Shown: positions 31,589 through 52,251 of the stretch, piece by piece
Layout of the letters: each line of letters starts with the position of its first letter
Numbering within the stretch: position 1 is the first letter of the stretch
Origin: Vulcanimicrobiota bacterium
GTDB lineage: Bacteria > Vulcanimicrobiota > JAJTBE01
Reading direction: 5' to 3'
Length of the DNA stretch: 64,000 nt
NCBI GenBank assembly: GCA_021107945.1
Contig: JAIORV010000155.1
Span: forward strand, 1 to 64,000
Notes under the pieces: generated by a model
Database searches by the model: none
Seen by the model: the letters and a program-made list of their open reading frames with translations, nothing else
What the model was told of the DNA's origin: nothing
Program-made: the position numbers and the translations under genes

Positions 31589-31613
31589 CCAAGATTTGCC
31601 TCCTGGCATACCT

Positions 31614-33140
31614 TCAGGGCAATTGACTACTCCTGCATTTTGCATCTTCTCGATATTTATTGGTAAAATACTTACTCCACTTATATTCCGGGTGGCTCAG
31701 GTAGTAATCCCTTACATTCGGGCGGTGGTGCTTGATCCTGATTTCCCCATAAAGTATTTCACCATTAACCTCTCTCATTCCTTCCATGCGGATTTTTTCA
31801 AGCTCCTGGCCTGTCAAGTGCTTAGTTCTTATTGCCGCCCTTTCAAAAGTGAATAATTCATATTTATTCTCATCAATCAGGTAGCCTTTTTTCTTGCATT
31901 CCCAATAAAAAGGAGTTCCAGGATATGGCGTTACAAGGAAAAACAATGCCATACTCAGTCCACATTCATCTTTGAGATATTTTGCAAATTCTATGGTCTT
32001 TCTTATGTCTTCCTCAGTTTCCTCCGGGAAACCAATCATGAAGCCGCCCTCGGTCTCAATGCCAGCCTCGGTAAACTTTCTGCAGAGCCTGGGGACGTTT
32101 CCCAATTCTTTATGAAAGTCCCTCCATCTTGTTTTATAGTTCTCAACAATCTCGATATTGAGGGACTCCACTGGAAAATAGACCCGGGAACATCCATATT
32201 CAATAATTATGTCTATCATCTCATCGGTTAATCTGGCAAGGTTCAATCCATTCAGGATACTCCAATAGAATCCCATCTTATTCAGCATTTCGAAGACTTT
32301 GACTGACAATTCGGGTTTCAAAAAGACATCGTTATCTTCCAGGAGAATTTCGTCATATCCCAACTCCTTGAGATTTTCCAATTGGTCTTGAATCCTATCG
32401 AGATCAAAAAAACGGCATTTATTTCCAGTCATCATATAGGATGCACAAAAGGTACAAGCCCAATCGCAACCCCTCGAGAAAACATAATCAGTAATAAATT
32501 TCCCCCTGATCACTGCCGTATGGAAGTGTCTATTGGGATAAAGCTCCTTCTTGAAAATGGTGTAGTCCGGGTCGGGTAGTGCATTGAGGTCGGGAACTCT
32601 TTCTATTTGATTCTTTAGAGTTTCCCCATCAATATTAGTTGCAATGCCCGGGACATTACAAAGATCTATCTTTCCTTCCAGATACTCCATTAACTTTACA
32701 ATGGAAAGTTCTCCCTCTCCCCTTGCAATGAAATCTATGTTCTTGTCTAGCAAAATCTTCTCATAATCTCCAGTGGCGTGAGCGCCACCAATAAGTGTTA
32801 CAATTCCGGGATTAACTTCCTTGACGAGTCTGCAAATATCCCTCACCGCCGGGAATTGTGGGGTCCTAATATTGGTAACCCCGACAACCTGGGGATTATA
32901 CCGGGCAATTCTTTTTTTTATTTCATCATAATCCAATCCCACCCGTATTAAATCGTTCTTCACAAAAATCTCGTTTTCAACTGCCTCGGCAGTGGCGTCT
33001 ATATACTCAACTTCATATCCATTTCTTTTCAGCACACTGGACAAAAATGCACAAGCCAGACTGGGGCCGATCCGGAAATAGTCGATTTCGGGATTATAGA
33101 ATTCGTGGGGTTGGATCAATAGTATCCGACTAACCTTCAT
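31614..33140 (-). CDS. B12-binding radical SAM enzyme (class B methyltransferase type)
   Basis: The 508-residue protein has an N-terminal cobalamin-binding-like domain (about 1-150, with LIGGAHAT) and a radical SAM barrel with the cluster motif Cys225-x3-Cys229-x2-Cys232 in FSRGCDWACTFC. The ordering and length match class B radical SAM methylases, which act on unactivated carbons in peptides, antibiotics and lipids. The C-terminal tail is variable and may bind substrate. The start at 33140 follows GGAG with five-base spacing; two GTG/ATG choices lie within six bases. Its place in the operon suggests methylation of the operon's product. It lies 151 bases after the preceding radical SAM gene, the largest gap in the operon, in which I found no small gene. 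Confidence 0.8.
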   Translation of the reverse strand: MKVSRILLIQPHEFYNPEIDYFRIGPSLACAFLSSVLKRNGYEVEYIDATAEAVENEIFVKNDLIRVGLDYDEIKKRIARYNPQVVGVTNIRTPQFPAVRDICRLVKEVNPGIVTLIGGAHATGDYEKILLDKNIDFIARGEGELSIVKLMEYLEGKIDLCNVPGIATNIDGETLKNQIERVPDLNALPDPDYTIFKKELYPNRHFHTAVIRGKFITDYVFSRGCDWACTFCASYMMTGNKCRFFDLDRIQDQLENLKELGYDEILLEDNDVFLKPELSVKVFEMLNKMGFYWSILNGLNLARLTDEMIDIIIEYGCSRVYFPVESLNIEIVENYKTRWRDFHKELGNVPRLCRKFTEAGIETEGGFMIGFPEETEEDIRKTIEFAKYLKDECGLSMALFFLVTPYPGTPFYWECKKKGYLIDENKYELFTFERAAIRTKHLTGQELEKIRMEGMREVNGEILYGEIRIKHHRPNVRDYYLSHPEYKWSKYFTNKYREDAKCRSSQLP

Positions 33141-33291
33141 AACCACTCCATCCGATCATTACATATTCGATTCAACTTAAATCATTGCTTCGTTTATAAA
33201 GAATCGTCTTGAAAAGAATTTCTTATCTACACAATTCTTCCCAAGACTAAATCTTCCTGTTCCTGTGGAGATCAAAGCATTAAACCAGGAA

Positions 33292-34212
33292 TCAAGTATA
33301 GAATCGCTCCTTGACAGGACAAGTAAATTCTCCAATTCTCACAGGATATTTCATTTGCTTAATCTCAAGGAGTTCCTTCAATGTTTTTTGCCTGATATTT
33401 CCAATATCAGCAGGGATCTCTGAACAAAATTTTGCATCACCCTTGTTTCCAATAAACAAGCCATATTTCCAGACTATGCAACCCTTATGGGAACAAGCTG
33501 ATTCTTCACAAGTAACTTGGTTCATTACTCTTAGAATTTCTTCCCTGGTCGGCTTTATTTCATCTTCATATTTAATAGCCCTGCCATGTATCCCTATTAT
33601 ATCCACAGTGGGCTTAATATTTCTTTGTAAGCACCAATCCACAATTCTCGGAATCTCATCGAGATTTGATTTGATGTATAATGACGCTGTAGCTATTCTC
33701 GTTATTCTTCCATTTGTCTTGCTATATCCGGCTTTCGATAATCTTTCTATTGCCTGCAAAGACTTTTGCTGAGACCCCCTGGATCTTGTGTAGTAGTCCT
33801 GGATTTCCGGGCGTAATGAATCGAGTTTAACAATGGGAGTAACATTATTTCCAAACATAAACCTTGCCATTTTCTCATCAATTAAAGATCCATTGGTATA
33901 AACAACAGAAACCATACCAGAATTGTAAGCATATTTGATCACTTCTTCAAAATCAGAATCCAGAAGAGGTTCGCCAGCACCTGCAATAACAAGCGACTTT
34001 GCTCCCAATTTAAGAGCTTGATTGAGTATGTCAATCTTCTCAGCCCTGGTAAGTTCTCCAGAATCCCTCTTCCCGGCGCTTTCAAAGCAATATATGCAAT
34101 TCATATTGCAGGCTTTAGTCATATCCAATCCGATAAATAAAAGCTTATTCTCCTGTTCCTCAGAGCCAATTTCCACTATATCGTCCAAACCGTGTAAAGC
34201 CAGTTGTTTCAT
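33292..34212 (-). CDS. Radical SAM enzyme with auxiliary-cluster-like tail
   Basis: The 306-residue protein has the radical SAM motif Cys35-x3-Cys39-x2-Cys42 in KACNMNCIYCFES, the GAGEPL and VYTNGS strands, and further cysteines near the end (CSHKGC, KFCSE, EFTC) suggestive of a short SPASM/twitch-like cluster. Such enzymes modify peptides or act in cofactor assembly. It follows the ABC transporter genes by 27 bases. The presence of three radical SAM enzymes in one operon points to multi-step modification of one substrate. No substrate can be read from the sequence. Confidence 0.75.
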   Translation of the reverse strand: MKQLALHGLDDIVEIGSEEQENKLLFIGLDMTKACNMNCIYCFESAGKRDSGELTRAEKIDILNQALKLGAKSLVIAGAGEPLLDSDFEEVIKYAYNSGMVSVVYTNGSLIDEKMARFMFGNNVTPIVKLDSLRPEIQDYYTRSRGSQQKSLQAIERLSKAGYSKTNGRITRIATASLYIKSNLDEIPRIVDWCLQRNIKPTVDIIGIHGRAIKYEDEIKPTREEILRVMNQVTCEESACSHKGCIVWKYGLFIGNKGDAKFCSEIPADIGNIRQKTLKELLEIKQMKYPVRIGEFTCPVKERFYT

Positions 34213-34239: not shown

Positions 34240-34980
34240 TCAAAGCTTATTGTTTCCGTTTCCTCCCATATTTAAACGGAAACTTAATATTTCTTGCGCC
34301 ACTTCATCATTGCTGATGAACTCATCTGTCTTTCCCATAAACTTTGTGGCGCCACAATCCAGGAAACAAACCTTATTTGAGATTTCAAGAGCCTTTTTCA
34401 TGTTCTGTTCCACTATCAATAAGGAGGTTCCAGTCTGATTAATTTCATTGAGCTTGCTGAATACCTTTTCAATTACTATTGGCGCAAGGCCCAAAGAAGG
34501 CTCATCCACCAGCAACAGATGTGGTTTGAGCATAAGTCCCCTTGCAATAGCAAGCATCTGTTGCTCTCCACCACTTAGATTGCCGGCAGATTTTTTCTCC
34601 AACTTCTTTAGCTCTGAGAATAAACTATATACATTATCAATTCTCTTGTTGACAACTTCTCTTGATTTAACAATATAAGCGCCCATTTGCAAATTTTCTC
34701 TCACTGTCAGTGTTGGAAAAATGTATCGCCCCTGGGGAACCATTACAATTCCACTGCGAAGTATTTCATCAGTATTCTTACCGGAAATTTTCTTATTCCG
34801 CCATATAATTTCCCCGGAATCTGGCTTGAGAATCCCAAATATGGCTTTCAAAAGGGTTGATTTTCCTGCTCCATTGGGGCCAAGTATAGCGATGACCTCG
34901 CCTTCCTCCATTGTTAAGTCAAAATCCTTCAGGACAATATTTCTATCATAGGAGACTTGTAACTTTTCAATTTTCAGCAT
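34240..34980 (-). CDS. livF: ABC transporter ATPase, branched-chain amino acid type
   Basis: The 246-residue protein is a complete ATPase of the LivF class: Walker A GPNGAGKST, Q-loop VPQGRYIFP, signature LSGGEQQ, Walker B LLLVDEPSLGLAP and the switch His region replaced by IVEQN, as is usual in LivF. It would drive import together with LivG. It begins two bases after the livG stop. In this operon the transporter may carry a peptide, amino acid or other small product or cue rather than Leu/Ile/Val. Confidence 0.9.
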   Translation of the reverse strand: MLKIEKLQVSYDRNIVLKDFDLTMEEGEVIAILGPNGAGKSTLLKAIFGILKPDSGEIIWRNKKISGKNTDEILRSGIVMVPQGRYIFPTLTVRENLQMGAYIVKSREVVNKRIDNVYSLFSELKKLEKKSAGNLSGGEQQMLAIARGLMLKPHLLLVDEPSLGLAPIVIEKVFSKLNEINQTGTSLLIVEQNMKKALEISNKVCFLDCGATKFMGKTDEFISNDEVAQEILSFRLNMGGNGNNKL

Positions 34981-34981
34981 A

Positions 34982-35770
34982 TTATTTTAGACCCCAATAT
35001 CTTTTCAAGACATCTTCATTTTTGAAAACCTCTTCAGGTCTTCCTTCTACAATCTTTTTACCTTCGTCAATGAATATTATCCAATCACTGATTTCCCGTG
35101 TCGCTTTCAAATTGTGTTCTATGAAGAAGATGGTTTTCCCAAAATCCTCTTTTAATGAAATCAACAAGTTCATAATTTTCTCGACCAATCCCGGATAAAC
35201 TCCAGATAGGGGTTCATCGAGTAGAAGAAAAGGGGCATCAGCCATCAATGCTATAGATAATTCAACCAATTTCTTTTGTCCATAAGAAAGATCACCTGTC
35301 AAAGAATTCTTTTTTCCTTCCAATCCCACAAAATCAAGCCATTTAAGTGCTCTCTCTCTTGCTTCTACTTCCTCCTTCTTCACTGACCTTCTTCTAAAAA
35401 TTGAGTACCAAAAGGATTTTCCCAGAGGGTAATTTCCTGCCAGCATCACATTTTCCAATGCTGTAAGTTGCGGAAATATTCTAGTATACTGGAAAGTCCG
35501 GGAAATACCCAATTGAGCTATCTTATAAGGGGGCATTCTGACTATGGATTTTCCCTCGAAAAATATATCTCCCCCATCAGGCTCAAGGAAACCCGAAATT
35601 ATATCGAAAAGCGTGGTTTTTCCGGACCCGTTAGCGCCAATTAAAGCGGAAATAACTTTTCCTTTCTCCACGACACAAGTTAAGTCATTTACGGCCTTAA
35701 GTCCATCGAAGCATTTTGTCAGTCCCTTTATTTCAAGAATGGCTTTTTTGTCCGCCAAAGTAATAATCAC
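34982..35770 (-). CDS. livG: ABC transporter ATPase, branched-chain amino acid type
   Basis: The 262-residue protein is LivG-like, with Walker A GANGSGKTT, signature LSYGQKK, Walker B FLLLDEPLSGVYP and the switch IEHNLKA. The signature GQ is followed by KKL, as in this family. GTG start at 35770 overlaps the end of livM by 38 bases, and a later TTG is also possible. It pairs with LivF as the second ATPase subunit. Confidence 0.9.
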   Translation of the reverse strand: MIITLADKKAILEIKGLTKCFDGLKAVNDLTCVVEKGKVISALIGANGSGKTTLFDIISGFLEPDGGDIFFEGKSIVRMPPYKIAQLGISRTFQYTRIFPQLTALENVMLAGNYPLGKSFWYSIFRRRSVKKEEVEARERALKWLDFVGLEGKKNSLTGDLSYGQKKLVELSIALMADAPFLLLDEPLSGVYPGLVEKIMNLLISLKEDFGKTIFFIEHNLKATREISDWIIFIDEGKKIVEGRPEEVFKNEDVLKRYWGLK

Positions 35771-36620
35771 CCCACAATCCTTTCGGCCTTAAGGTAACAA
35801 TAAGTATCAAAAGAATTCCATAAATCAACTGACGAAGGGGAGCGCTTATAGCACCCGGGATATTGAGAAAGCGAAGAATTTCAGGTATGGATATTAATAC
35901 AGCGGCACCAACAATCGGGCCGCGAATATTCCCCATACCGCCAATGACCACCATTGTCAGTATTGTTATTGATTCCATAATCGTAAAACTTGATGGATCA
36001 ATAAATGTTATGTAATGAGCATATAGACTTCCGGCAATTCCTGCAAAGCCGGATCCAACGAGAAAGGCGATTATTTTATATCTTGCAATGTCGATTCCAC
36101 GGACCTGGGTTGCCTTTTCATCCTCTCTTATTGCCTTAAGAATGCGGCCGAATGGTGAGTAGATAGCCGCTCTCAATATAAGAATTGTGATTAATAGGAA
36201 GGAAAGTGTCAAAATGAGATATTTTGTGGGAGAATCAAACGAAAATCCAAGAATCTCAGGCTGCGGAATTCCCGGCATCCCCATTGGCCCCCCGGTAATG
36301 GAAGTCAGATTGTTAAATATCGAATAGGCTATGATACCAAATCCAAATGTGGCTATCCCCAGAAAGTCTCCTCTTAGCCGTAGAGACGGAAGCCCGACAA
36401 CGAAGCCTATAAGAACGGAAACAAGAACCGATAACAGAATACTTGCCCAGAAGGGAATTCCAGCTTTCAAGGCTAACAAAGCCGAAGTATATGCCCCTAT
36501 TCCCATAAAAGCTCCCTGGGCAATTGAAAACTGACCGGAAACCCCAATAATAATATTCAGACTCAATGATAGAATCATATATATACATACAATATTGAGA
36601 AGGTGAATTACGTATGCCAC
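35733..36620 (-). CDS. livM: ABC transporter permease, LivM type
   Basis: The 295-residue membrane protein has about eight hydrophobic segments and the family motifs GAYTSAL, GDFLGIATFGFG and the EExA loop LKAIREDEKAT that contacts the ATPase. The GTG at 36620 overlaps the livH stop codon and follows GAGGAA. An ORF extending to 36716 would add a non-homologous tail inside livH, so the shorter start is better. Confidence 0.85.
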   Translation of the reverse strand: MAYVIHLLNIVCIYMILSLSLNIIIGVSGQFSIAQGAFMGIGAYTSALLALKAGIPFWASILLSVLVSVLIGFVVGLPSLRLRGDFLGIATFGFGIIAYSIFNNLTSITGGPMGMPGIPQPEILGFSFDSPTKYLILTLSFLLITILILRAAIYSPFGRILKAIREDEKATQVRGIDIARYKIIAFLVGSGFAGIAGSLYAHYITFIDPSSFTIMESITILTMVVIGGMGNIRGPIVGAAVLISIPEILRFLNIPGAISAPLRQLIYGILLILIVTLRPKGLWGDYYFGGQKSHS

Positions 36621-37498
36621 TATGTTTCCTCGATTCTCAACTTGACTGCGAAAATTCCGCCTGGTCGAATAAGCAAGAATATAATAAGTAGAGCAAAAGA
36701 GATTGTATCTTTCCACACCGATGGAATAACCAATATTCCCAGATTCTCGATTATCCCCAATAGAAGTCCTCCGACAAAGGCGCCATTAAGAGAACCCATA
36801 CCGCCAATAATTGCAGCTATTACGCCCTTAAGAATAATGTTCATACCCATGGACGGACCGAGATTTGATTCTACACCCACAAGTATTCCAGTACAGATTC
36901 CAATTATAGAGCTTAACAAAAAGATGTAGAGAATTGTCTTGTCGATATTTATTCCAACAATACGGCTCGCATATATATTATCAGATAAGGCCCGAATAGC
37001 AATTCCTATCTTTGTGTATTTGAGCAATAAGTTAAGGAGCAAAATTAAGAGGATGTTAATGATAATAATCAAAATCTGATGATCAGTTATTCTAGCCCCT
37101 AAAAAGCTATGTCCCTCCTGAACCATTCCAAAGTTAATTGTCCTGATCTGAGATCCAGCCAATATCTCGATAATGCTTTGAATAGCTATGTAAACCCCAA
37201 AAGAACTGATGAAAAAGATCAAGCTTGGAGCCCTCTTGATTCTTAATCCCTTATAAGCCAAAAATTCTATGAGAATTATCAATAAAATTCCAATAGCAAT
37301 AGACAAAGCGAGAGAAGTTATGATTCCCAGCTTAAGCTTCTCAAAGAATAAATAGAAAGAATAAGCCCCAACAGCAATTATCCCACCGTGAGCAATATGA
37401 AAGAATTTCACAGCGCGATAAACGAGATTGAAACCAATAGCTGCCAAGGAATAAATGCTTCCAGCTATTATGCCATATATGAGGAACTGCGATATCAT
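36620..37498 (-). CDS. livH: ABC transporter permease, LivH type
   Basis: The 292-residue membrane protein starts with FLIYGIIAGSIYSLAAIGFNL, the typical LivH opening, and has about eight membrane segments with the ATPase-contacting loop RALSDNIYASRIVGI. It overlaps the binding-protein gene by four bases. It forms the heteromeric channel with LivM. Confidence 0.9.
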   Translation of the reverse strand: MISQFLIYGIIAGSIYSLAAIGFNLVYRAVKFFHIAHGGIIAVGAYSFYLFFEKLKLGIITSLALSIAIGILLIILIEFLAYKGLRIKRAPSLIFFISSFGVYIAIQSIIEILAGSQIRTINFGMVQEGHSFLGARITDHQILIIIINILLILLLNLLLKYTKIGIAIRALSDNIYASRIVGINIDKTILYIFLLSSIIGICTGILVGVESNLGPSMGMNIILKGVIAAIIGGMGSLNGAFVGGLLLGIIENLGILVIPSVWKDTISFALLIIFLLIRPGGIFAVKLRIEET

Positions 37499-38685
37499 TC
37501 TTCCTCAAACAGGGTGAATTTGCCGTTTTTCACCACATATACATCATATTTCTTTGTGACTTCTCCATAAACATCGAAGGTAGTTGAGCCCGTGACTCCC
37601 TGGAAATCCTTAATCTTATAGAGAGCGTCCTTAAGGCCTTCACCGGTTTCCCCGTCCATTTCCAGCGCTTTTCCAACTATTTTCATGCAATCATATGCAG
37701 TCGCCGCATAGACTTCAGGATCTTTTTTGAATTTCTTTTTGAACTTGGTGACGAAATCCTTAACGATAGGATCATCGCTATCAGGCGCCCAATGCATATT
37801 GACCACATATACTCCTTCAGCGGCCCCTCCGGATAGCTTGATTAGCTCTGGTGCAAAACACCCCTCCGGAGCGACAAATTTTACTTTGAGTCCTATCTCC
37901 TTAGTCTGTTTGAGAATTAATGCTCCTTCCTTATATTGGGAAGAGAGAAAGACAACACCTGCACCCGAATTTTTGATCTTCGCTAATTGCGCCCTAAAAT
38001 CAGTTGCGCCCTGATCGAAGCCTTCCACTGCCAATACCTTTCCACCCAAATTCTTGAATTGTCTTGAAAACACATTTTTCAATCCTGCGCCATAATCGTT
38101 ATTAATGAAAAGAATGGCGGCTTTCTTCAATCCGAGCTCCCTAAATGCGAAATCCGCCACCACTTTGCCCTGATAGTTATCAGATGGCCAATTTCTAAAA
38201 ATATAGTTTCCTGCATCTTTTATCTTATCGTTAGAACAGGTGGGTGAGATGTAAACTACCTTATGCTTTTCGGCAATAGGGGCACAAGCGAGCATCACGG
38301 AAGAACCCGTTCCCTGAATTACAAGAGGAACCTTATCTATCGTAATGAGCTTCGTGATAATTGAAACTCCTTTTTTGGGATCCAATTGATCGTTATCATA
38401 AATAACTTCAATTTTTTTGCCCCTTATACCCCCGGCTGTGTTAATTTCGTCAACAGCCAGTTCAGTTCCATATTTGACCATTTCGCCATAATAAGCAGCA
38501 TCACCCGTCAAAACGCCTATCCATCCGATTCTTATAACACCTTTCTCTTTGGGTGTTTCCTTCGTCGGACTTGCAGGTGTTGGGCTTACCTGAGGCGGCC
38601 CTTCTCTCCTTGTGCACCCCAAGAGACACACAAAGAGGAATAAAATGATCATAATTAATCCCAGAAGTTGCCTTCTCTTAAACAT
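37495..38685 (-). CDS. Lipoprotein periplasmic-binding protein, LivK type
   Basis: The 396-residue protein has a signal peptide with lipobox VCLLGC, a Pro/Thr/Ser-rich linker, and a type I periplasmic-binding fold of the Leu/Ile/Val family (IRIGWIGVLTGDAAYYGEMVKYG, then LAVDEINTAGGI). The start at 38685 follows AAGGATGG. Members bind amino acids, amides, aromatic acids or short peptides, so the ligand is open. Its location among peptide-modifying genes suggests the transporter serves that pathway. Confidence 0.85.
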   Translation of the reverse strand: MFKRRQLLGLIMIILFLFVCLLGCTRREGPPQVSPTPASPTKETPKEKGVIRIGWIGVLTGDAAYYGEMVKYGTELAVDEINTAGGIRGKKIEVIYDNDQLDPKKGVSIITKLITIDKVPLVIQGTGSSVMLACAPIAEKHKVVYISPTCSNDKIKDAGNYIFRNWPSDNYQGKVVADFAFRELGLKKAAILFINNDYGAGLKNVFSRQFKNLGGKVLAVEGFDQGATDFRAQLAKIKNSGAGVVFLSSQYKEGALILKQTKEIGLKVKFVAPEGCFAPELIKLSGGAAEGVYVVNMHWAPDSDDPIVKDFVTKFKKKFKKDPEVYAATAYDCMKIVGKALEMDGETGEGLKDALYKIKDFQGVTGSTTFDVYGEVTKKYDVYVVKNGKFTLFEEE

Positions 38686-38699
38686 TTGGCACCATCCTT

Positions 38700-39317
38700 T
38701 CAAGCATTGATTTTTGCCAATTCATCATTTATTAATTCCAACAACTCAAAAGTTCCGTAATCCCTTGATTTCAAACTTGCAATTGCCGGTCTGCCCAATT
38801 TGAAATTCCATGACTTGGCAAGGCTAATATCCAAAAGCCCGCATAAAATGCAAGCCAAGATTCCTCTATGAGATATAATGGCTATAGAAGCTTCATCATT
38901 GTAATGTTTTGTAATCTCCTTGACCTTTTCCATTGCCCTTTTCTGCGCCTCAGGAATTGTCTCCTTTGCCCCGGAAATTATACATTTATCCATTTCATAG
39001 AAGAAAATCCTTCCCTCATCGCTTCTTTTGAATGTATCACGGGATTGACCTTCAAAATCTCCCATATCTATTTCCCGGAATTCTTCAATAACGCTGGGCT
39101 TGACATTCAATATAGCGCCAATTGATTGAGCGGTTTCTTTAGACTGGATTGAAGATCCGGAATAAATTTTATCTATCCTTACTTTGTTTCTAAGAAATTT
39201 ACCGATCCTCCTTGCATCTTCCACGCCCTTCTTGCTAAGAGAGGAATCCAATTTTTCGCTGATAATTAAATCTTGAAACTTCTCTCTTTCTGTGACTGGT
39301 ATGAGAAGGATTCTCAT
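38700..39317 (-). CDS. Histidine-phosphatase-fold protein without the RHG motif (paralogue 2)
   Basis: The 205-residue protein follows the phosphoglycerate-mutase/histidine-phosphatase fold (SKETAQSI, EFREIDMGDFEG, IAIISHRGILACIL). The N-terminal RHG that carries the phospho-accepting His is replaced by PVT at residues 7-9, and the second-motif Arg is also lost. The later His of SHRG remains. It is probably not a conventional phosphatase and may bind a phosphorylated or anionic ligand. It overlaps the SPASM enzyme gene by one base. It is paralogous to 43000-43611. Confidence 0.7.
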   Translation of the reverse strand: MRILLIPVTEREKFQDLIISEKLDSSLSKKGVEDARRIGKFLRNKVRIDKIYSGSSIQSKETAQSIGAILNVKPSVIEEFREIDMGDFEGQSRDTFKRSDEGRIFFYEMDKCIISGAKETIPEAQKRAMEKVKEITKHYNDEASIAIISHRGILACILCGLLDISLAKSWNFKLGRPAIASLKSRDYGTFELLELINDELAKINA

Positions 39318-40663
39318 TACTCAATGCTCCCTTCAATAGTCATTTTTCTCGAAATTAAATCCCTGATCATCTCAATTTCGCAATTCTCAATTAATTCCTT
39401 GTGGCAGAAAGTATCGGTGATATTTCCGTTTTCCATAACGCAATGTAATCTACATCCACCAAGACAGAGGGGCAAATAAGCACACTTCCTACATTCATCA
39501 TTATCCCAAGGAGTCATTTCGATGTATTTGTAGATTCTTTCAATCAAGTCCGGAGAGAATCCTTGAGACACATTTCCGATTTTATATTCTTCCATACCGG
39601 GCATGCCAATACATTTGTATATATTTCCCAAGGGATCAAAAACAAGATGGCTCAATCTCCAGAAAGTACAGGGCCCTTTATCAAAGATTCTTATGGGATT
39701 GCAGGAAAATCCTTTTCGGGCAGCTATTTTTAATAGATCTGCCCAAATATGATAATATTGCTTTGATGGCAGGCGATAATTATTGCAATGTTCTAAATTG
39801 CATTTTGTCTCAAACACAGGTGAAAAGGCAATCGCAAAATTCTGATCTTTAAATTCGGAGATTTCATCCAGAAAGCTGGGAAGAGCCTGGTAATTTTGAA
39901 GGTCAAAGTTTATCAATAATAAGACTTTTGAATTTGTGTCCCGCAAGATTCTATTTATATTCTTATGGATAACTTTATAACTTCTTTTTCCTGTCTTGAA
40001 TGGGCGTCTCTTATTATGAATCTCAGGAGGGCCATCTAAAGTGATTTGGAGATATTTAAATTTATAATTTTCTAATACCTTTATAAGATGATCATTAAGA
40101 ATTGTCCCGTTAGTATACATATAGAATTCGGGAGTAATTCCTTCTCTTGATGTTGCACAAATTAATTCTTCAGGAAAAAACTCCAGCATTTCGGGATTTA
40201 ATGTTGGTTCTCCGCCATAAAAATATACTTTCATTTCTTTGCTCTTATGTTTTTTGGCAAATTTGTGTAGCCAATTGATTATTCTTGACGCTGTCTCTCG
40301 ATCCATATCCAATTGCCGATTCTTAATATATCCATCCTCAAAACAATATGTACAGCCAAGATTGCATCTTGAAGTTAAAAGAACCACTGCCTTTATAATT
40401 GATGTGTCAAGTTTTATATTTTCGAACCACCTTCTAAATAAGTCAATCTCATCTACAGAGTCTTCCAAAACAAGTCCGGTTGTTTTCAGCAGATTTAGAC
40501 TTTCATCATCTAATAAAGCAAGGCTACTGACATTATCATACATTTTTTCCAATACAGAGGCTTTATCTGGAGATAATTCAACAATTGCCCTATTTAGGCA
40601 GTTAATTATTGCTTTAAATTTCCCGTTTAACGATATTAATTTGCAAAACCGGGATAGTTTCAT
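39317..40663 (-). CDS. Radical SAM/SPASM peptide-maturase-like enzyme
   Basis: The 448-residue protein has an N-terminal domain of the kind seen in peptide-modifying radical SAM enzymes (ILxNxLNRAIVEL, about 1-70). The radical SAM motif is Cys100-x3-Cys104-x2-Cys107 in TSRCNLGCTYCFED, with YFYGGEPTL and the strand YTNGT. The C-terminal SPASM domain has CIGMPG and the NDECRKCAYLPLCLGGC cluster. This layout is that of ranthipeptide/sactipeptide-type and anaerobic sulfatase maturases. The 53-residue Cys-containing peptide encoded about 1.7 kb upstream in the same operon is the natural substrate candidate. It overlaps the MtxX-like gene before it by four bases. Confidence 0.8.
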   Translation of the reverse strand: MKLSRFCKLISLNGKFKAIINCLNRAIVELSPDKASVLEKMYDNVSSLALLDDESLNLLKTTGLVLEDSVDEIDLFRRWFENIKLDTSIIKAVVLLTSRCNLGCTYCFEDGYIKNRQLDMDRETASRIINWLHKFAKKHKSKEMKVYFYGGEPTLNPEMLEFFPEELICATSREGITPEFYMYTNGTILNDHLIKVLENYKFKYLQITLDGPPEIHNKRRPFKTGKRSYKVIHKNINRILRDTNSKVLLLINFDLQNYQALPSFLDEISEFKDQNFAIAFSPVFETKCNLEHCNNYRLPSKQYYHIWADLLKIAARKGFSCNPIRIFDKGPCTFWRLSHLVFDPLGNIYKCIGMPGMEEYKIGNVSQGFSPDLIERIYKYIEMTPWDNDECRKCAYLPLCLGGCRLHCVMENGNITDTFCHKELIENCEIEMIRDLISRKMTIEGSIE

Positions 40664-41460
40664 CCTTTTTGCTTCTCCTTCTTAATGTTTACAAGGGCAC
40701 AGGCAAATTTTAGAGCATTCAGGTATGTCTTAGGACCAAGTCTTCCAGTTGCAGAGACAAAGATTCTTTCCGTTAATGCTGGCTGTGCAATAAGATCTGC
40801 TCCAGCAGAGAAAAATGTGCCTCCCATAAGATAAGCTCCGGTCCAGTTGTGAGCAAATAATATATTTCTTCCATGATCTAAGGCTTCTTTGACTTTGTCA
40901 CCGTAACTCTTGGCGTTAATGTTTTCTTTTGATAAGAAAGAAGTCAGATAATTGCCTTCAAATATAATTCGATCTACATTTGGATCTTCTCCCAAATATT
41001 TTTCCAGGCAGTAGAAGATTGCTACTTTAGGCTCAATTGCCAAATCCTTCATTAAAGATACGGCAAGTTGGAGTATACTCAATTTGAATATCATATTATC
41101 TATTCCTGTTGTGCGAAGCGGTCCTATAAAAAAATAATGATTATTAAAATGCATAAGGTTTAGCCTGAGAACCTTTTCCATATATTGATTCTCCAGAGCA
41201 TTAATTATTTTTTGCTTGCCAAAATTCCAATGGACAATTCCATCTACCTCACCGGAAATTAGCATTGAAGACATATCTTGTGCAGTGATCTTTGGGTAAT
41301 TCTCATAACCGGACACTTTAGTTCCTGCAATTACAATATCAGCATATTCTTTTGATTGAGTGAGTATTTCCAAAATTTCCTGGTCAACCTTTTTTAGGGC
41401 AATCGCAATTATAGGCTTGCTTAACTTTGCCTTTTCCAAGATTTGTTTATACAAGTTCAT
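40660..41460 (-). CDS. MtxX/phosphotransacetylase-like protein (copy B)
   Basis: The 266-residue protein resembles the MtxX (methanogenesis marker Mmp4) branch of the phosphate acyltransferase fold: an N-terminal half with IAIALKK and DIVIAGTK, and a C-terminal half with PKVAIFYCLEKYLGEDPNVD, FEGNYLTSFL and the GAYLMGGTFFSAGADLIAQP segment. Function of the bacterial relatives is unknown. The start at 41460 aligns with the start of the tandem paralogue and follows GGAGG; a longer TTG start lies at 41493. It overlaps the SPASM gene, so it is probably made with it. Confidence 0.55.
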   Translation of the reverse strand: MNLYKQILEKAKLSKPIIAIALKKVDQEILEILTQSKEYADIVIAGTKVSGYENYPKITAQDMSSMLISGEVDGIVHWNFGKQKIINALENQYMEKVLRLNLMHFNNHYFFIGPLRTTGIDNMIFKLSILQLAVSLMKDLAIEPKVAIFYCLEKYLGEDPNVDRIIFEGNYLTSFLSKENINAKSYGDKVKEALDHGRNILFAHNWTGAYLMGGTFFSAGADLIAQPALTERIFVSATGRLGPKTYLNALKFACALVNIKKEKQKG

Positions 41461-41485
41461 TACAAGTTTTACCTCCGAGATATTC

Positions 41486-42295
41486 TTATCCAAACTTCTT
41501 TTTATTCACAAGTGCTGTCGCCATTATAATTGATCTTAGTAGACCGCCTTTGGTGGAGGAACTGTGGACATATATGCATTCATCCATAAATACATGTTCA
41601 TACAGCCAATCCCCTCCTGCAAGATTAACAAGAACGTCGCCTATGAATTGAGTTATCATGCTACCAGGAGTTATAATAAGGTTGCATCCTTCTTTTACTG
41701 CTTTGCTAGTTTTTTTGTAATAGTTTGTTATATTAATTCTATCCCGATAGAAAGATGTAAGCATCTCAGCTTCTGCCATACTCTGATCAACCAGAGGGTC
41801 TTTCCCCAAATGCCCAAGATGCCCGGCGGAAATTACTCCAACCTTTGGAGTACCTCCCCACGATCTTATGAAGGCGGTGCCCTTCTCAATTAATTTCATT
41901 CTATCCTCCATAGAATGCTCATTGGTAATTCTATCAGGGCCAATATAGAAATAGAATTCTCCCTTCTCATTGGCAATTTTCAATAGAGCCATTCGAATAA
42001 CTTTCTCAAGGTTAAATAACCTCTGTATTTCATCCAATAAAATATCCGATTGAAAATTTCCCTTTACAATGGCCTCAACTTTCCCATCTTTTACTAAATT
42101 GACCAGAGTAGAAAAATCTCCCTCAAGGCTCTCAAAACCCTCGATCTTTTCTCCGACTACAACAATGTCAGCCCATTTCTTGCCTTCATTAATCTCAGAA
42201 ATTAGCCTATCCCCCGCCTTTCTTAATCCAATAGCGATTCTGGCTTTTGCCTTCTCAGCAGTCTTGATCATATTTTCAAATACTTGCAGTGCCAT
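41486..42295 (-). CDS. MtxX/phosphotransacetylase-like protein (copy A)
   Basis: The 269-residue protein is paralogous to the next gene over its whole length: ARIAIGLRKAG, DIVVVGEKI, VEAIVKGNFQSD, PKVGVISAGHLGHLGKDPLVDQS, AEAEMLTSFYRDR and GDVLVNLAGGD. Copy A keeps the motif GHLGHLGKDPLVD close to MtxX phosphotransacetylase-like proteins, while copy B is more divergent there. A hetero-oligomer is plausible. RBS AAGGGGGG, ATG at 42295. It lies 57 bases after the peptide gene. Confidence 0.55.
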   Translation of the reverse strand: MALQVFENMIKTAEKAKARIAIGLRKAGDRLISEINEGKKWADIVVVGEKIEGFESLEGDFSTLVNLVKDGKVEAIVKGNFQSDILLDEIQRLFNLEKVIRMALLKIANEKGEFYFYIGPDRITNEHSMEDRMKLIEKGTAFIRSWGGTPKVGVISAGHLGHLGKDPLVDQSMAEAEMLTSFYRDRINITNYYKKTSKAVKEGCNLIITPGSMITQFIGDVLVNLAGGDWLYEHVFMDECIYVHSSSTKGGLLRSIIMATALVNKKKFG

Positions 42296-42352: not shown

Positions 42353-42514
42353 TTAGCATTTGTAGTGAGTCATACAATCTGGAAGGAATTGATAGGCGTT
42401 AAAGAGATCCTTGGGAGGCTTTACAATCTTGATACCCCTATTCACATTATGAATATTGGTGTTTTTCCCTTTAGATCCCTTATCTTTGGTTTTATTTTCT
42501 TTTACTTTTTTCAT
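42353..42514 (-). CDS. 53-residue peptide, candidate modified-peptide precursor
   Basis: The ATG at 42514 directly follows the HIT gene stop codon (TAG at 42517-42515), so it is read by coupled translation. The product has a Lys/Asn-rich first half (MKKVKENKTKDKGSKGKN) and a second half IKIVKPPKDLFNAY followed by QFLPDCMTHYKC at the stop. Two Cys and an Asp near the end, a small size, a leader-like basic start and a position upstream of three radical SAM enzymes fit a RiPP precursor. An alternative is a small structural or metal-binding protein. No homologue is recognised. Confidence 0.6.
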   Translation of the reverse strand: MKKVKENKTKDKGSKGKNTNIHNVNRGIKIVKPPKDLFNAYQFLPDCMTHYKC

Positions 42515-42973
42515 CTACAAGACACCTGCCTGGATCTGTGAAGTTTGCTTCGATAGATGCATCCTGATTTCGTTAATTATTTCTGCATATTCTTCGTCCT
42601 TCAATTCTACTTCAGGTTGAGGCTCAACCCAAATGGCAGTTCCCCAGTTAACTTCCCATTTATACCTTGGTATTATATGCCAATGTAAATGAGGAACTTT
42701 ATTACCCATTAAAAGATAATTCATATGATCTGGACTAAAGATTTCCTTTACCGCCTTTGCCATTTTTAGCATGTCCTGGTAAAGACCGAGATTCTCTTCG
42801 TCAGAAAGCTCTGTTATATTTTCCTTATGATCGTGAAAATATACCGTTATATATCCACGGTTATATTGATCCTTTTTAAGCCTGACAATAGATGATGACA
42901 ATCTTGTAATAAAGAATCTATCAGTCTCAGTGGTTGTTAGATATTTGCATATTTTGCAATCATCTTTTGACAT
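42515..42973 (-). CDS. HIT-family hydrolase
   Basis: The 152-residue protein has the histidine triad PHLHWHIIPRY, the N-terminal CKICKYL zinc-like motif common in HIT hydrolases, and the usual RGYITVYFHDHKENI strand before the helical middle. HIT enzymes cleave nucleotidyl groups from phosphoramidates, phosphate esters or dinucleoside polyphosphates. The start at 42973 follows GGAGA. The next gene (the peptide) abuts its stop codon, and the preceding phosphatase-like gene is 26 bases away. A role in nucleotide-linked intermediates of the operon's product is an inference. Confidence 0.85.
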   Translation of the reverse strand: MSKDDCKICKYLTTTETDRFFITRLSSSIVRLKKDQYNRGYITVYFHDHKENITELSDEENLGLYQDMLKMAKAVKEIFSPDHMNYLLMGNKVPHLHWHIIPRYKWEVNWGTAIWVEPQPEVELKDEEYAEIINEIRMHLSKQTSQIQAGVL

Positions 42974-42999
42974 AAACAACAATCTCCTTCATCCATAAT

Positions 43000-43611
43000 T
43001 CATTTCAAATTAATTTCGCTAATCTTAGCACTATTTATGATGTCATGCAACACAAAAGAATCTTCACTTTTCATTTCAATTATTATAATCGCACAGTTGC
43101 CGATTTTGAGCCTCCAGAAATTAGTAAAATTGTCACCTAGTATTCCACACAAAATCGCTCTCATAGTACCGCCATGGGTGACGATGAGAATTGCCTTCTC
43201 ATTTTTATGCTTTTGAAATAACTCCTTTATTTTTAGCTTAATTAACTCCAGGGTTTCAAAGATTGTCTCCTCAACACCAGGGATAACACATCTTTCAATG
43301 CTGGAGAAAAAGATTTTTCCCTTCAATGAAGTCTTAATTTCCTGTTTTGTCTTACCGTCAAATTCTCCAAGGTCTATTTCGTTAAACTCATCAATTATTT
43401 CGATATCATTTGAAATGAATTTGGCAGTTTCTCTGCACCTTCCCATTGGACTCGAATAAACTTGAGCGAGAGTAAGTTCCTTTAGTGCTGTACCTACATC
43501 TTCTGCCATCTCTTTTCCCGCTTCTGTCAAGGGAGAATCATAATTCCTGCCAGAGACCCTTCCTTCTCTATTTGCATCGGTCTGAGCTAGTCTTAAAAGT
43601 ATTAAATACAC
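43000..43611 (-). CDS. Histidine-phosphatase-fold protein lacking the catalytic His (paralogue 1)
   Basis: The 203-residue protein is a recognisable histidine-phosphatase (SPLTEAGKEMA, YSSPMGRCRETA, IDLGEFDGKTKQEI, ILIVTHGGTMRAIL). The nucleophile motif, normally RHG with the phospho-accepting His, reads Arg7-Leu8-Ala9. The other active-site residues (Arg in the second motif, Glu, and the His of THGG) persist. This suggests a pseudo-enzyme that still binds phosphorylated ligands, or an altered mechanism. GTG start follows GGAGG. It is the first gene behind the promoter at 43647-43674. Confidence 0.75.
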   Translation of the reverse strand: MYLILLRLAQTDANREGRVSGRNYDSPLTEAGKEMAEDVGTALKELTLAQVYSSPMGRCRETAKFISNDIEIIDEFNEIDLGEFDGKTKQEIKTSLKGKIFFSSIERCVIPGVEETIFETLELIKLKIKELFQKHKNEKAILIVTHGGTMRAILCGILGDNFTNFWRLKIGNCAIIIIEMKSEDSFVLHDIINSAKISEINLK

Positions 43612-46339: not shown

Positions 46340-46446
46340 CCTTGCGCCCTGTGCTATAATTGAGGTTTTGCGATCAGTGCCGAGATAGCCTGGCTCTTCC
46401 CCGTCGGTCGGTCGCATCAAAAACCTCGATGCACAGGAGGGCAAGG
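46340..46446. repeat. Long imperfect hairpin inside the IS3 left end
   Basis: CCTTGC-GC-CCTGTGC at 46340-46354 pairs with GCACAGG-A-GGGCAAGG at 46431-46446, and inside it GAGGTTTTGCGATC pairs imperfectly with the CGCATCAAAAACCTC region. It can fold as a structured RNA or a DNA cruciform. It could be an inserted small element; no other copy is in the window. Confidence 0.5.
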
Positions 46447-46461
46447 TGGAGATTCCTTTCG

Positions 46462-47304
46462 CTAATTGCCATGATAAATACTGGCAGGCGTCTTGTATTT
46501 CAAGCTCTGATGGGGTCTTTCGTTGTTGTAAAAAACAATATAGCTTCTGATACCCGCCCGTGCTTCCCGCGGGGTCGGATAATCCTTCAGATACACCTCC
46601 TCATACTTCAAACTTCTCCAGAATCTCTCGGTGAAAATGTTGTCGATGGCACGCCCCTTGCCGTCCATGCTTATCAATACATTTCTGTCCTTCAAAAGCT
46701 CAATATACTTCGGGCTTGTGAAATGGCTCCCCTGGTCGCTGTTGAATATGATCGGGCAAGACCTGGGAAAAGCCCGCTCCACAGCTTCAAGAACAAAAGG
46801 CATCTCAAGTGTCTGGTCCAACTCCCAACTGACGATAAATCGGGAATACCAGTCGATGACGGCGACCAGATACATCCACGACTTTTGAAGCTTGATATAA
46901 GTAATATCAATTCCCCAGACCTGGTCGGGTTGATGAATTTCGACATTCCGCAACAGGTAGGGATATATCCTGTGTTGCAAGTCCCGCTTGCTCAGGTTCG
47001 GACCGGGATGGATAGCTTCAATTCCCATTTCTCTCATATGCCTCTGCACTGCCTTGCGATTTATCGGAAACCCTTCGTTCTTCAGCGTCACGGCGATTCT
47101 TCTTGAACCGTAGAAAGGATAAGCTGTGTAAATCTTGTCAATCCTGTGTTTTGTGGCGATCTCCTCCGGCGATGGAGGAACCGCCCTGTAATAGATTCCG
47201 CTTCTGTTAAGCCCCAAGAGGGATGCCTGGGTGGAGATGGAAGACTCTTCCTTGTTCAAGTCCAGCAAATCCAGACGCTCGGCTCTACTCAAATTTTCCA
47301 CCAC
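46462..47304 (-). CDS. IS3 transposase, orfB (DDE integrase domain)
   Basis: The 280-residue protein has the rve integrase core with Asp in WGIDITYI, Asp in NSDQGSHFTS and Glu in FTERFWRSLKYEEV, and a HTH_21-like N-terminus. GTG start lies 20 bases inside orfA. A run of nine A residues precedes the overlap in the transcript (47305-47315), suited to -1 programmed frameshifting into an OrfAB transposase. Confidence 0.9.
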   Translation of the reverse strand: MVENLSRAERLDLLDLNKEESSISTQASLLGLNRSGIYYRAVPPSPEEIATKHRIDKIYTAYPFYGSRRIAVTLKNEGFPINRKAVQRHMREMGIEAIHPGPNLSKRDLQHRIYPYLLRNVEIHQPDQVWGIDITYIKLQKSWMYLVAVIDWYSRFIVSWELDQTLEMPFVLEAVERAFPRSCPIIFNSDQGSHFTSPKYIELLKDRNVLISMDGKGRAIDNIFTERFWRSLKYEEVYLKDYPTPREARAGIRSYIVFYNNERPHQSLKYKTPASIYHGN

Positions 47305-47584
47305 ATTTTTTTTTGAGCCAGGACAGCTGGGAAGTCAGCTTTCCTATCTCAGCATACAGATTGTTCAACTGCTTTTCGTGCTTCGCCTTGAGTTGATTTA
47401 TAGGCTTCTGCTCGTTCTGAAACACCACGGGAGCATTCTGTATAAATTGCGTCTTCCATTTGGACAACTGATTGGGATGAACCCCATGCTCCGAAGCAAT
47501 CTGCGAGAGTGGCTCTTCTTCCCTCAAAATCCGCAAGACCATCTCAGCCTTTGCCTCGGGGGTGAAAGTTCTACGTTTTTTCAT
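47285..47584 (-). CDS. IS3 transposase, orfA
   Basis: The 99-residue protein has an N-terminal helix-turn-helix (RTFTPEAKAEMVLRIL...LSQIASEHGVHPNQLSKWK) and a C-terminal leucine-zipper-like helix. It binds the IS ends and joins orfB by frameshifting. Confidence 0.9.
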   Translation of the reverse strand: MKKRRTFTPEAKAEMVLRILREEEPLSQIASEHGVHPNQLSKWKTQFIQNAPVVFQNEQKPINQLKAKHEKQLNNLYAEIGKLTSQLSWLKKKCGGKFE

Positions 47585-47665
47585 TTTTTTAGGACCTCTC
47601 TTCCAAATTAATTGGTCCTAACCAACTAAAAACCTACTGATTTTTTGTCCGGTTTATGGGGTCCA

Positions 47666-47946
47666 TTATATTCCTGGCATTCTGCAGATAATGGATAACA
47701 TCAACGAATATAAATTTCTCAGAAGTCTCCATTTTTTTAGCCAGATTCGATCCAGAATCGTCAAGGAACATCGGTTACCGATTAAGGATTCTTCTCGATG
47801 CATTATAATTGCGAGGAAATTTGGACAGTATCCCGACTTCCTTATGGGGTCATTATAACATCCCCATAAATTCTAAATTGTAATATAGGACAGGACTTCC
47901 GCGAAATTAATATTTTTTTTCTTTTCTTGCATGAGTTTTCTTATGA
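47666..47946. other. AT-rich spacer with one short ORF
   Basis: A 55-codon frame at 47691-47858 (contains RIVKEHRLPIKDSS and ARKFGQYPDF) has no clear ribosome site and could be a transposase remnant or chance. Nothing else is supported here. Confidence 0.35.
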
Positions 47947-50070
47947 ATGAAAAAAGAATATGATATTATGCAAAACACATATTCTTTTTTCAGAAAAAGC
48001 CAACTACTGATATCAACAGCTGTCGGCAAGATTATCAATATTTCATATTTTGTAGATATTGTTGGACTAACTTACTACAAATACCTTCTCGTTTACATTA
48101 TTGGATTAATAATTCTTGAAAGAAATCCGAATATGACCAGGATAAGCAAGCGGATGAGGTTTTGTGTCGAAGACAGTCTTTACAGGATGCTGAACTTTAT
48201 GACGCTTCCTTTGCGAGCATTGTCAACTTTTCTCATAGCATATATCAGCAAAACCCGCAAAACTCCCGGCTATCTCATCATCGATGATACCGTCATTTCA
48301 AAGAAATATTCAAAGAAAATCGGATACACGGGCTACGCCTGGTCATCCAGCGATAATTGTGTTGTTCTTCTCTGGAGCGACGGAAATAGAAAGATCCCTG
48401 TGAGTTTTTTGCTCTGGCGTCCCCGTAGCAAGACAAAACATTACAAAACAAAGCTTGATTTATCTCGACAGCTTGTTTGTGATAACATAGAGTTCTGTAG
48501 AAGCTGTGATTATCTGGTTTTTGACAGTTGGTATTGCAGTAAAAAATTTCTGAGTATAATGAAAAACCTGGGAATTCCCTGTGTGAGTCGCCTGACCAGA
48601 AACAGGAATGTCATTTTCAAAGGACAGAAAATGAAAGTCACCGATTTTGCTAAAGACAGCTTCAGCAGGGTCAATCTGCCGGGTTTTGGAGATATTCTCC
48701 TCTGCTGTGTAAAGATAAACAAAGCGTTGAATTATTTGGTAAGCACCGACCCGGAGCTTACTTTCAAGGAGGTGAAGCGCAGATACAAGAGCCGTTGGGT
48801 TGTGGAGGAATATTTCCGTATAACGAAACAATGCTTGGGCTTGCAGGCTTGCCAGTGTCGAAGAGACAAGGCGGTGGTAAACCACATAACCCTGGTATTT
48901 CTAGCTTATTTGGTATTGGAGATAACTTCGAAACAGTTAAAAATCAATCATTATCAGGCAAAATCCAAACTTCAGGATAAATTCTATGGATGGAAAATCC
49001 GATACAACCGCGACGGCAAGAAGGGCAAAAAACAGGTTGTATTTGGGCTTCTTGCCGACGAGGACGGCGACCCCATATCCATCGAAGTTTTTAGGGGCAA
49101 CACGAGTGATCCCAAGACCGTGGAAGCTCAGATTGACAAGCTCAAAGGACGTTTTGCCTGCGAACATGTAGCTCTGGTCGGCGACAAGGGTATGATCCGG
49201 GGACCTCAGACCATGGCGATTAACGAAGCTAATCTGAACTACATAACCGGCATCACAAAGGCGGAAATCCGGACTCTGTTGAAAGATGAAGTCCTTCAAC
49301 TGGAGCTTTTTGATGTGGATGTGTGCGAGGTGACCGAGACCAGGAGCGGGGTTCGATATATCCTTCGCAGAAATCCGACCCGAGCTGAGGAAATAGCTCG
49401 CAACCGCCGGTCGAAAATCGACGCTGTGGAAAAGAAGATTGCAAAGGCGAATCTTCACTTGAAAGAGCATTCCAGGGCAAAGGCGGCAACGCAGATAAAA
49501 AATCTGAACGCTTATGTCGAAAAACTTAAAATCGACAAATACATCGCCATTTTTGCGAACGAATCCACGAGAACCCTGAGCCTTCGGGTTGACGGGGAGA
49601 AGATGCGGGATGGCGCAAAACTCGACGGCTGTTATGTGATAAAGACGGATCTCCCCAATGAAGCTGCCGATGCCAAAACCATTCACAAGCGGTACAAGGA
49701 TCTTGCCCTGGTGGAAAAATCTTTTCGGACGATGAAAGGCATGCTGGAAGTGCGTCCGATTTTTGTTCGAAAAGCCAATCGAACCAGAGCGCATTTTTTC
49801 GTGGCAATGCTGGCATACAAGATTGAGCGGTATCTTCGAAAAAGCTGGAAGGACCTGGATATGACCGTGGGCGAGGGAATCAGAATGCTTTCCACGATTA
49901 CCGGCATTGTGCTTACGATTGGAAATCAGCGAATAGTCCGGGTTCCGGACCCCAACTCCCTCTGCCTTCAACTACTGTCAAAGATCAATGCGGTTCTCCC
50001 TGAAATATTACCCTGCAAGGAGGTATATCTGGACACTAGAAAAAAACTACATCAATGTCGCAAGAGTTAA
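47947..50070 (+). CDS. Chimeric transposase: IS4/IS701-like N-half fused to IS1634-like C-part
   Basis: The 707-residue frame joins two transposases. Residues 1 to about 345 have a DDE layout of the IS4/IS701 type (IIDDTVISKK, FDSWYCSKKF, RWVVEEYFRITKQCLGLQ). From about residue 348 (RYNRDGKKGKKQ) it becomes the C-terminal two thirds of an IS1634-type transposase (FRGNTSDPKTVEAQ, VALVGDKGMI, KSFRTMKGMLEVRPIFVR), nearly the same as the pseudogene at 18241-19440. The fusion keeps the frame, but the IS1634 part lacks its own N-terminus. The most likely event is insertion of one element into another followed by deletion. Confidence 0.75.
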   Translation: MKKEYDIMQNTYSFFRKSQLLISTAVGKIINISYFVDIVGLTYYKYLLVYIIGLIILERNPNMTRISKRMRFCVEDSLYRMLNFMTLPLRALSTFLIAYISKTRKTPGYLIIDDTVISKKYSKKIGYTGYAWSSSDNCVVLLWSDGNRKIPVSFLLWRPRSKTKHYKTKLDLSRQLVCDNIEFCRSCDYLVFDSWYCSKKFLSIMKNLGIPCVSRLTRNRNVIFKGQKMKVTDFAKDSFSRVNLPGFGDILLCCVKINKALNYLVSTDPELTFKEVKRRYKSRWVVEEYFRITKQCLGLQACQCRRDKAVVNHITLVFLAYLVLEITSKQLKINHYQAKSKLQDKFYGWKIRYNRDGKKGKKQVVFGLLADEDGDPISIEVFRGNTSDPKTVEAQIDKLKGRFACEHVALVGDKGMIRGPQTMAINEANLNYITGITKAEIRTLLKDEVLQLELFDVDVCEVTETRSGVRYILRRNPTRAEEIARNRRSKIDAVEKKIAKANLHLKEHSRAKAATQIKNLNAYVEKLKIDKYIAIFANESTRTLSLRVDGEKMRDGAKLDGCYVIKTDLPNEAADAKTIHKRYKDLALVEKSFRTMKGMLEVRPIFVRKANRTRAHFFVAMLAYKIERYLRKSWKDLDMTVGEGIRMLSTITGIVLTIGNQRIVRVPDPNSLCLQLLSKINAVLPEILPCKEVYLDTRKKLHQCRKS

Positions 50071-50129
50071 GTAAAATCAACGGCTTGAGGCACTATTACA
50101 CTGTGTGAATTTTATGGAAGATCCGCTCC

Positions 50130-50453
50130 AACAGTGCTGGATGTAAGACATGGTGTATCGCTCTTGTCTCAGCAGTTATTATTATCATAGCTGATAAAGG
50201 TAAACCCAATTATATATGGATATCAATAATACCCATTGCTTTGTTTTTTCTTTTAGACTCCTATTATTTGGGATTGGAGAAGCGCTTTAGATCTTTATAT
50301 AATGAATTCATTTATAAACTTCATTTTGGGTCTGCGACTTTAGGCAATGTTTTTATTGTGACAACCGAAGACGGAATGTGTAAGGCAATTGTGTCAACAC
50401 TTGAAGCATCTACATCGTTTTCGATTGGCCGTTTTACGGCTTACTTGCTTTAA
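50130..50453 (+). pseudogene. Truncated two-membrane-segment protein
   Basis: The frame gives NSAGCKTWCIALVSAV, a hydrophobic stretch, then IIPIALFFLLDSYYLGLEKR and RFRSLYNEF. This resembles a widespread family of about 190-residue two-TM hypothetical proteins that have a W/Y-rich second membrane segment and the motif DxYYLxxERxFRxLY. The N-terminal start is missing, cut by the adjoining IS1634 right end. No promoter or start is visible. Confidence 0.5.
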
Positions 50454-50620
50454 TGCTTGCTATTGTTAAGATAATAATACTGACACCTTGAATGAGGTTC
50501 CGATAGTAAACGGACAAAAAACTTCTATCTTGAATTATTAAGAGAATGAAGAACTTGCCAAGGCGGAGCATGTCAATAGTTTGAGACAATTTTTTTTAAG
50601 AGTTTAATGTATCACTCCTT

Positions 50621-51637: not shown

Positions 51638-52251
51638 AAGTCGCTTTCTTCGCTCCCGGGGTCTCTCAGGGGGATCCCCGTGAGCTCGGAGACTTTTTTT
51701 TGAATATCCAAAAGAAGCTCAGCGCGCTCAAGACGCTTGCGCAAACGCCTGTTCTCCTTCTCAAGCTCATTGATATGTTCTACATCTGCAGGATCTTTCT
51801 TGACGGGTTTAGTCCCCCTTTTCTTTGGACTCAAACCGGCAAGCGCTCCTCTTTCTCGCTGCTTGCGCCAGGACTTGATATGAGAGGAATATAATCCCTC
51901 TCGCCGCAAGATAGCTCCAATTTCGCCGCGCAGGGTCGCAGAATCTATCTCCTTGAGAATGCGAAGTTTGTATTTTGCCGTGAATCTCCTTCGCCTGGGA
52001 CGCTCAAGGACTTCGGGATCGGGGACTTCGACCACGGGGTGAAATTCGCAAGTGTTGTAGTCAGGGATAACAATCCCCGGAGCCTCAGAATCCCGCATTT
52101 TCGCCTTGGAAACTCTTTGCCCCGACCTTGTTGTTGTTGTTACTTTCTTTAAGGATTTGTTATCCGGAATATCCACTGTGGCATCTTCCAATCCAGGACT
52201 CTTTTGGTTCGTTACTCCTTCCAAAAGTCTCTCATCTGACATCATATGCAT
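51634..52251 (-). CDS. IS3 transposase, orfA
   Basis: The 205-residue protein has a central helix-turn-helix (RRRRFTAKYKLRILKEID, EIGAILRREGLYSSHIKSWRKQ) and a C-terminal coiled coil (ELEKENRRLRKRLERAELLL). The N-terminal 60 or so residues are low in structure. Its start region and RBS are repeated at 26881-26943. Confidence 0.8.
   Translation of the reverse strand: MHMMSDERLLEGVTNQKSPGLEDATVDIPDNKSLKKVTTTTRSGQRVSKAKMRDSEAPGIVIPDYNTCEFHPVVEVPDPEVLERPRRRRFTAKYKLRILKEIDSATLRGEIGAILRREGLYSSHIKSWRKQRERGALAGLSPKKRGTKPVKKDPADVEHINELEKENRRLRKRLERAELLLDIQKKVSELTGIPLRDPGSEESDL

Follow-up and report, generated by a model that had tools for sequence, protein, structure and literature searches.

A candidate 53-residue peptide gene in a radical SAM/SPASM operon of a Vulcanimicrobiota bacterium

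Does a short open reading frame (ORF) that begins directly at the stop codon of a HIT-family gene encode a peptide, and is this peptide the substrate of a radical SAM/SPASM enzyme encoded in the same operon? The question arises from a stretch of 64,000 nucleotides (nt) of a Vulcanimicrobiota bacterium (GenBank assembly GCA_021107945.1, contig JAIORV010000155.1, positions 1 to 64,000), hereafter the window, in which a sequence-only reading had pointed to a gene for a 53-residue peptide ending in cysteine. We consider the ORF probably a translated gene, which is a judgement and not a computed value. Our leading but unproven explanation, held with somewhat less than even confidence, is that it is a real, translated small gene whose product serves as substrate peptide of the SPASM enzyme three genes downstream.

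The ORF and its junction with the HIT gene

42353..42514, minus strand: candidate peptide gene, basic N-terminal half, C-terminal PDCMTHYKC, without a family in Pfam, NCBIfam, PHROGs, or PADLOC
42523..42527, minus strand: Shine-Dalgarno-like match AGGTG, 8 nt before the ORF ATG, within the 3' end of the HIT gene
42515..42982, minus strand: HIT-family protein, 155 residues, complete (PF01230, 37 bits; PDB relatives such as 2oik)

The candidate gene reads from 42514 to 42353, comprises 53 codons, and would encode MKKVKENKTKDKGSKGKNTNIHNVNRGIKIVKPPKDLFNAYQFLPDCMTHYKC, of which DLFNAYQFLPDCMTHYK is an example of a tryptic fragment. Coordinates, strand, length, and the PDCMTHYKC end had all been given correctly, as re-reading of the sequence confirmed, and the ATG indeed touches the upstream stop: the junction reads GTC TTG TAG ATG AAA, the HIT TAG being directly followed by the ORF ATG. 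As the ATG keeps the HIT frame, the ORF can also be read as a continuation of HIT interrupted by a single stop codon. It fills 162 of the 219 nt separating HIT from the first MtxX-like gene, the largest gap of a packed operon. The N-terminus of the peptide is rich in Lys, Asn, and Gly, and its two cysteines (Cys47, Cys53) both fall within the last seven residues, spaced C-x2-H-x2-C, with no Asp or Glu C-terminal of either. The claim that the ORF escapes most gene callers was too strong, as common callers take genes from about 30 codons upward. For the 57-nt gap 3' of the ORF, a structured RNA was rejected because folding was no better than that of shuffled sequences, as was a terminator because no terminator-like site is present; Rfam gave no match within the window.

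Codon use was scored with a training set of 466 long ORFs from 864 kb of the same genome (window included). The mean codon log-odds of the ORF is 0.038 against intergenic sequence, a score attained by 77% of 52-codon gene fragments, 9% of intergenic ORFs, and 5% of ORFs inside other genes. Against out-of-frame codons it is 0.133; 57% of the gene fragments attain this value, compared with 5% of intergenic ORFs and 0.8% of those lying within other genes. The comparison with intergenic ORFs is conservative, because this set may include real small genes. A Shine-Dalgarno match of at least 5 nt precedes 53% of long ATG genes versus 8.4% of random ATGs, and the ORF has a 5-nt match. Codon score and ribosome-binding site each favour coding by approximately 6- to 11-fold. 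These lines of evidence are individually modest and not fully independent, and the ORF moderately exceeds chance expectation.

The SPASM enzyme and its possible substrate

39317..40663, minus strand: radical SAM/SPASM enzyme, candidate maturase, with CNLGCTYC, GX4C, and CX2CX5CX3C motifs and about 90 residues N-terminal of the radical-SAM core

The operon extends on the minus strand from 43611 to about 27535, in the order histidine-phosphatase-like protein, HIT protein, ORF, two MtxX-like proteins, SPASM radical SAM enzyme, second histidine-phosphatase-like protein, LivKHMGF-type importer, second radical SAM protein, B12-radical-SAM protein, and two further large genes. Most junctions overlap or span a few nt, except for 219 nt (HIT–MtxX) and 145 nt (33147-33291). 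A small ORF and a putative peptide-modifying enzyme share one operon, three genes apart, an arrangement generally expected of precursors of ribosomally synthesized and post-translationally modified peptides (RiPPs). The ORF had been placed before SPASM and B12-radical SAM enzymes. What stands of this context is a probable small gene, co-directional and in one operon with a SPASM enzyme of RiPP-maturase type and a B12-radical-SAM enzyme. It is adjacent to neither: two MtxX-like genes intervene before the SPASM gene, and the B12-radical-SAM gene follows about 9 kb further along, beyond the ABC transporter.

The SPASM protein carries CX3CX2C and the full SPASM cysteine pattern (TIGR04085, 56.9 bits at a cut-off of 27) and aligns from residue 1 with several maturases (CefB, geopeptide, Clo7bot) and from its first residues with the TIGR04463 and Sarcina enzymes. 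Its best models are NF038107 (CefB; 228.6 of the 600 bits required), TIGR04280 (geopeptide maturase; 223.6 of 400), TIGR04463 (196.5 of 525), and the Clo7bot maturase (170.7 of 600), and it stays well below the cut-off of every named maturase family tested. A structure model built from eight sequences (mean predicted local distance difference test, pLDDT, of 65) found its best solved-structure matches in anaerobic sulfatase-maturating enzyme (anSME), CteB, ChlB, TigE, and SuiB, all enzymes acting on peptides or proteins. From these alignments and the model, the protein appears to be of RiPP-maturase type, with a peptide-modifying activity taken from its relatives.

Under our leading explanation, ribosomes completing HIT would reinitiate from the ORF's own Shine-Dalgarno sequence, and the product would be a ribosomally made substrate of the SPASM radical-SAM enzyme. 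Its basic N-terminal part would act as a leader held by the extra N-terminal region of the enzyme, and the C-terminal DCMTHYKC would undergo oxidation or cross-linking, with Cys47, Cys53, or both as possible sites. Translation, the substrate role, and the division into leader and core are what we infer. In support stand the ORF, its position, the ribosome-binding site, gene-like codon use, and the presence in the same operon of a SPASM enzyme whose cysteine pattern and core fold are those of peptide and protein modifiers. The substrate role is further supported by the confinement of cysteine to the last seven residues, by a long basic half that may be a leader, and by the lack of another candidate small ORF, as no credible second precursor was found in the gaps of the operon, including the 145 nt at 33147-33291. 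The basic N-terminal half that had been called leader-like is present; its richness in Lys, Asn, and Gly at the N-terminus is no more than compatible with such a role. The C-terminal C-x2-H-x2-C could equally bind metal.

Known systems offer partial parallels. In the Clo7bot system, short peptides are likewise encoded before a SPASM enzyme, CtpM (TIGR04334), which aligns end to end with the SPASM protein of the window at 26% identity. Clo7bot peptides, however, mostly start with MKFIKKP, are Cys-rich throughout, and occur as tandem copies beside the maturase, whereas the window peptide is single, has two cysteines, and is encoded three genes from the SPASM gene. For CefA/CefB and TIGR04463, the likeness lies in CefB being the best-scoring maturase model, albeit under its cut-off, and in one example with a SPASM maturase beside an annotated RiPP radical-SAM C-methyltransferase; the CefA example differs in encoding a large protein with a Cys-repeat tail, for which the operon in the window has no counterpart. 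The geopeptide maturase model matches over nearly the full length of the SPASM protein, again under cut-off. The ranthipeptide maturases PapB and CteB share SPASM sequence relation and core fold with the window enzyme. The natural PapB substrate carries a Cys-X3-Asp/Glu motif (PMC9413430), and PapB also tolerates other Cys-Xn-Asp spacings in vitro.

31614..33146, minus strand: B12-binding radical SAM protein (PF02310, PF04055; NF038361, 170 of 575 bits)

The proposal of thioether and methyl modification is unsupported. For a thioether, the SPASM protein stays under all the maturase cut-offs, and the peptide has neither Cys-X3-Asp/Glu nor profile kinship to Clo7bot precursors. As for methylation, the best model of the B12 enzyme is the P-methyltransferase family NF038361, nearer than RiPP C-methyltransferases and at a score far under cut-off, so that a methyl group on the peptide is speculation.

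Weighing the explanations

Several observations weigh against a translated substrate peptide. The peptide was unmatched at E 0.01 in 148 genomes of the phylum, its own genome excepted, and matches no precursor family. Its gene lies three genes from the SPASM gene, and the operon encodes an importer but no recognised leader peptidase or exporter. Unlike the PapB substrate, the peptide lacks the Cys-X3-Asp/Glu motif, having two cysteines without Asp or Glu after them. A Clo7bot-like leader, seen by eye in the resemblance of GIKIVKPP to MKYIVKPT/MKFIKKP, was rejected: scored against a profile built from nine Clo7bot-locus peptides, the window peptide reached 2.8 bits, under many shuffles and random ORFs. 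The N-terminal approximately 90 residues of the SPASM protein, where a recognition (RRE) domain is a candidate, were modelled at pLDDT of about 30-50. RRE domains occur discrete or fused (PMC7470986), and fused ones can sit at the N-terminus of such enzymes. Further, of 56 same-strand gaps measuring 170-270 nt, 7 contain a stop-adjacent ORF of at least 45 residues, and several of these ORFs look non-coding; 10% of genes are followed by at least 53 open codons after their stop.

The frequency of such ORFs and open stretches, together with the missing homologue, favours a frame that is open by chance, in a gap that is not translated and holds just the MtxX ribosome-binding site. This is a serious rival, though less probable than our leading explanation; against it, few chance ORFs would combine a Shine-Dalgarno match with a gene-like codon score. 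The peptide's absence elsewhere says little because the operon neighbours are missing too: the search of about 150 phylum genomes turned up no homologous operon, and among the genomes searched we found no place with the rest of the operon present but the peptide absent. Weak matches in relatives (E 0.06-1) were noise, as the two inspected lie in frames overlapping unrelated larger ORFs; searches with the peptide against phages gave no match and against plasmids one match, also noise.

As an equally serious rival of the same probability, the ORF could be a real small gene of another function, its product for example a metal-binding or RNA/nucleotide-binding partner of HIT, with a basic disordered tail and C-x2-H-x2-C, co-translated with HIT and unmodified by the SPASM enzyme. 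The same coding evidence would apply, coupling is direct to HIT and lacking to SPASM, CMTHYKC offers three possible ligands, and the N-terminal half is strongly basic. Against such a partner stand the lack of a homologue or family, a SPASM enzyme that needs a substrate in an operon with no other small ORF, and, as weak evidence, a single-sequence structure model of the peptide alone without a fold (predicted template modelling score, pTM, of 0.16). Far less probable is a C-terminal extension of HIT, by read-through of the TAG or by a recent or erroneous stop in one longer protein. The frame does run in phase through a single TAG, but HIT needs no extension to reach the length of solved HIT proteins (155 residues versus 135-154 for most PDB relatives), TAG commonly ends genes in this genome (115 of 466 long ones), open stretches past TAG are about as long as past other stops, and an ATG with a Shine-Dalgarno match sits exactly at the junction.

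The MtxX-like pair and the wider operon

41486..42295, minus strand: MtxX/Mmp4-like protein 1 (TIGR03270, 98.5 bits at a cut-off of 190; MTH_231 structure 9nzy)
40660..41493, minus strand: MtxX/Mmp4-like protein 2 (TIGR03270, 59.4 bits at a cut-off of 190; 29% identical to protein 1)
43000..43611, minus strand: histidine-phosphatase (phosphoglycerate-mutase-like) protein 1 (PF00300, 139 bits; RLA in place of the canonical RHG motif)
38700..39317, minus strand: histidine-phosphatase paralogue 2 (PF00300; canonical RHG motif missing; 33% identical to paralogue 1)
34240..38703, minus strand: LivK-LivH-LivM-LivG-LivF-type ABC importer, five genes (LivK: NF011933, 176 bits; the other four from inspection of translations)
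33292..34212, minus strand: second radical SAM protein, 306 residues, partial SPASM (PF04055; PF13186 weak)

MtxX is a methanogen marker protein of unassigned function. The two genes after the peptide encode clear relatives of methanogenesis marker protein 4/MtxX (TIGR03270), with MTH_231 (9nzy) as the nearest solved structure. They differ in scoring under the cut-off (relatives, not members), in being duplicated, and in sharing an operon with radical-SAM enzymes. At E 1e-6, a search of 149 phylum genomes with MtxX-like protein 1 returned only itself and its paralogue; the rest of the phylum has no close relatives of the tandem pair (40660-42295, minus strand) among the genomes searched. For the SPASM protein, the phylum genomes yielded a single relative below 1e-25. 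A pattern scan of 84,980 species based on an MtxX alignment found four loci, all from methanogens, by a selective method that may miss bacterial operons, and single-protein SPASM patterns and MtxX pair patterns found no relative in viral contigs. Of the two histidine-phosphatase paralogues, the first has RLAQTDAN and the second no counterpart of RHG; as both lack this canonical catalytic motif, they may not be ordinary phosphatases. At the operon end, 28814-31645 and 27535-28812 (minus strand) are histidine kinase-like and receiver-domain-like by eye, with no Pfam match at E 0.01.

Upstream of the operon, inspection of translations revealed a cluster of transposase-like ORFs (insertion sequences; 46360-52251), and 52563-55166 (plus strand) encodes an 867-residue ATPase that matches PADLOC candidate defence family PDC-S06 (473 bits). 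On the minus strand, 19669-26268 looks like a ubiquitin-like conjugation cassette, with a ThiF-type E1, a protein that appears JAB-like from a DIHTHPG motif spotted on inspection but is unmatched in Pfam, two AAA ATPases, a pair of proteins similar to each other (124 and 149 residues; 25058-25432 and 25475-25924), and a tandem-repeat ORF of 96 residues (25978-26268).

As a whole, the operon is more unusual than the peptide itself. In a further proposal, which we consider doubtful, the peptide would be a precursor that the operon turns into a new RiPP-like product or a peptide-derived cofactor, by means of SPASM, B12-radical-SAM, and HIT proteins together with paired phosphatase-like proteins that lack the canonical motif and paired MtxX-like proteins otherwise known from methanogens. 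MtxX relatives outside methanogens would then have a functional context for the first time. Should the frame be a product of chance, the operon would still be odd and the peptide story would fall. If instead the gene is real, it would indicate a substrate for an orphan SPASM enzyme, and a very unusual operon, including its two MtxX relatives, would become testable.
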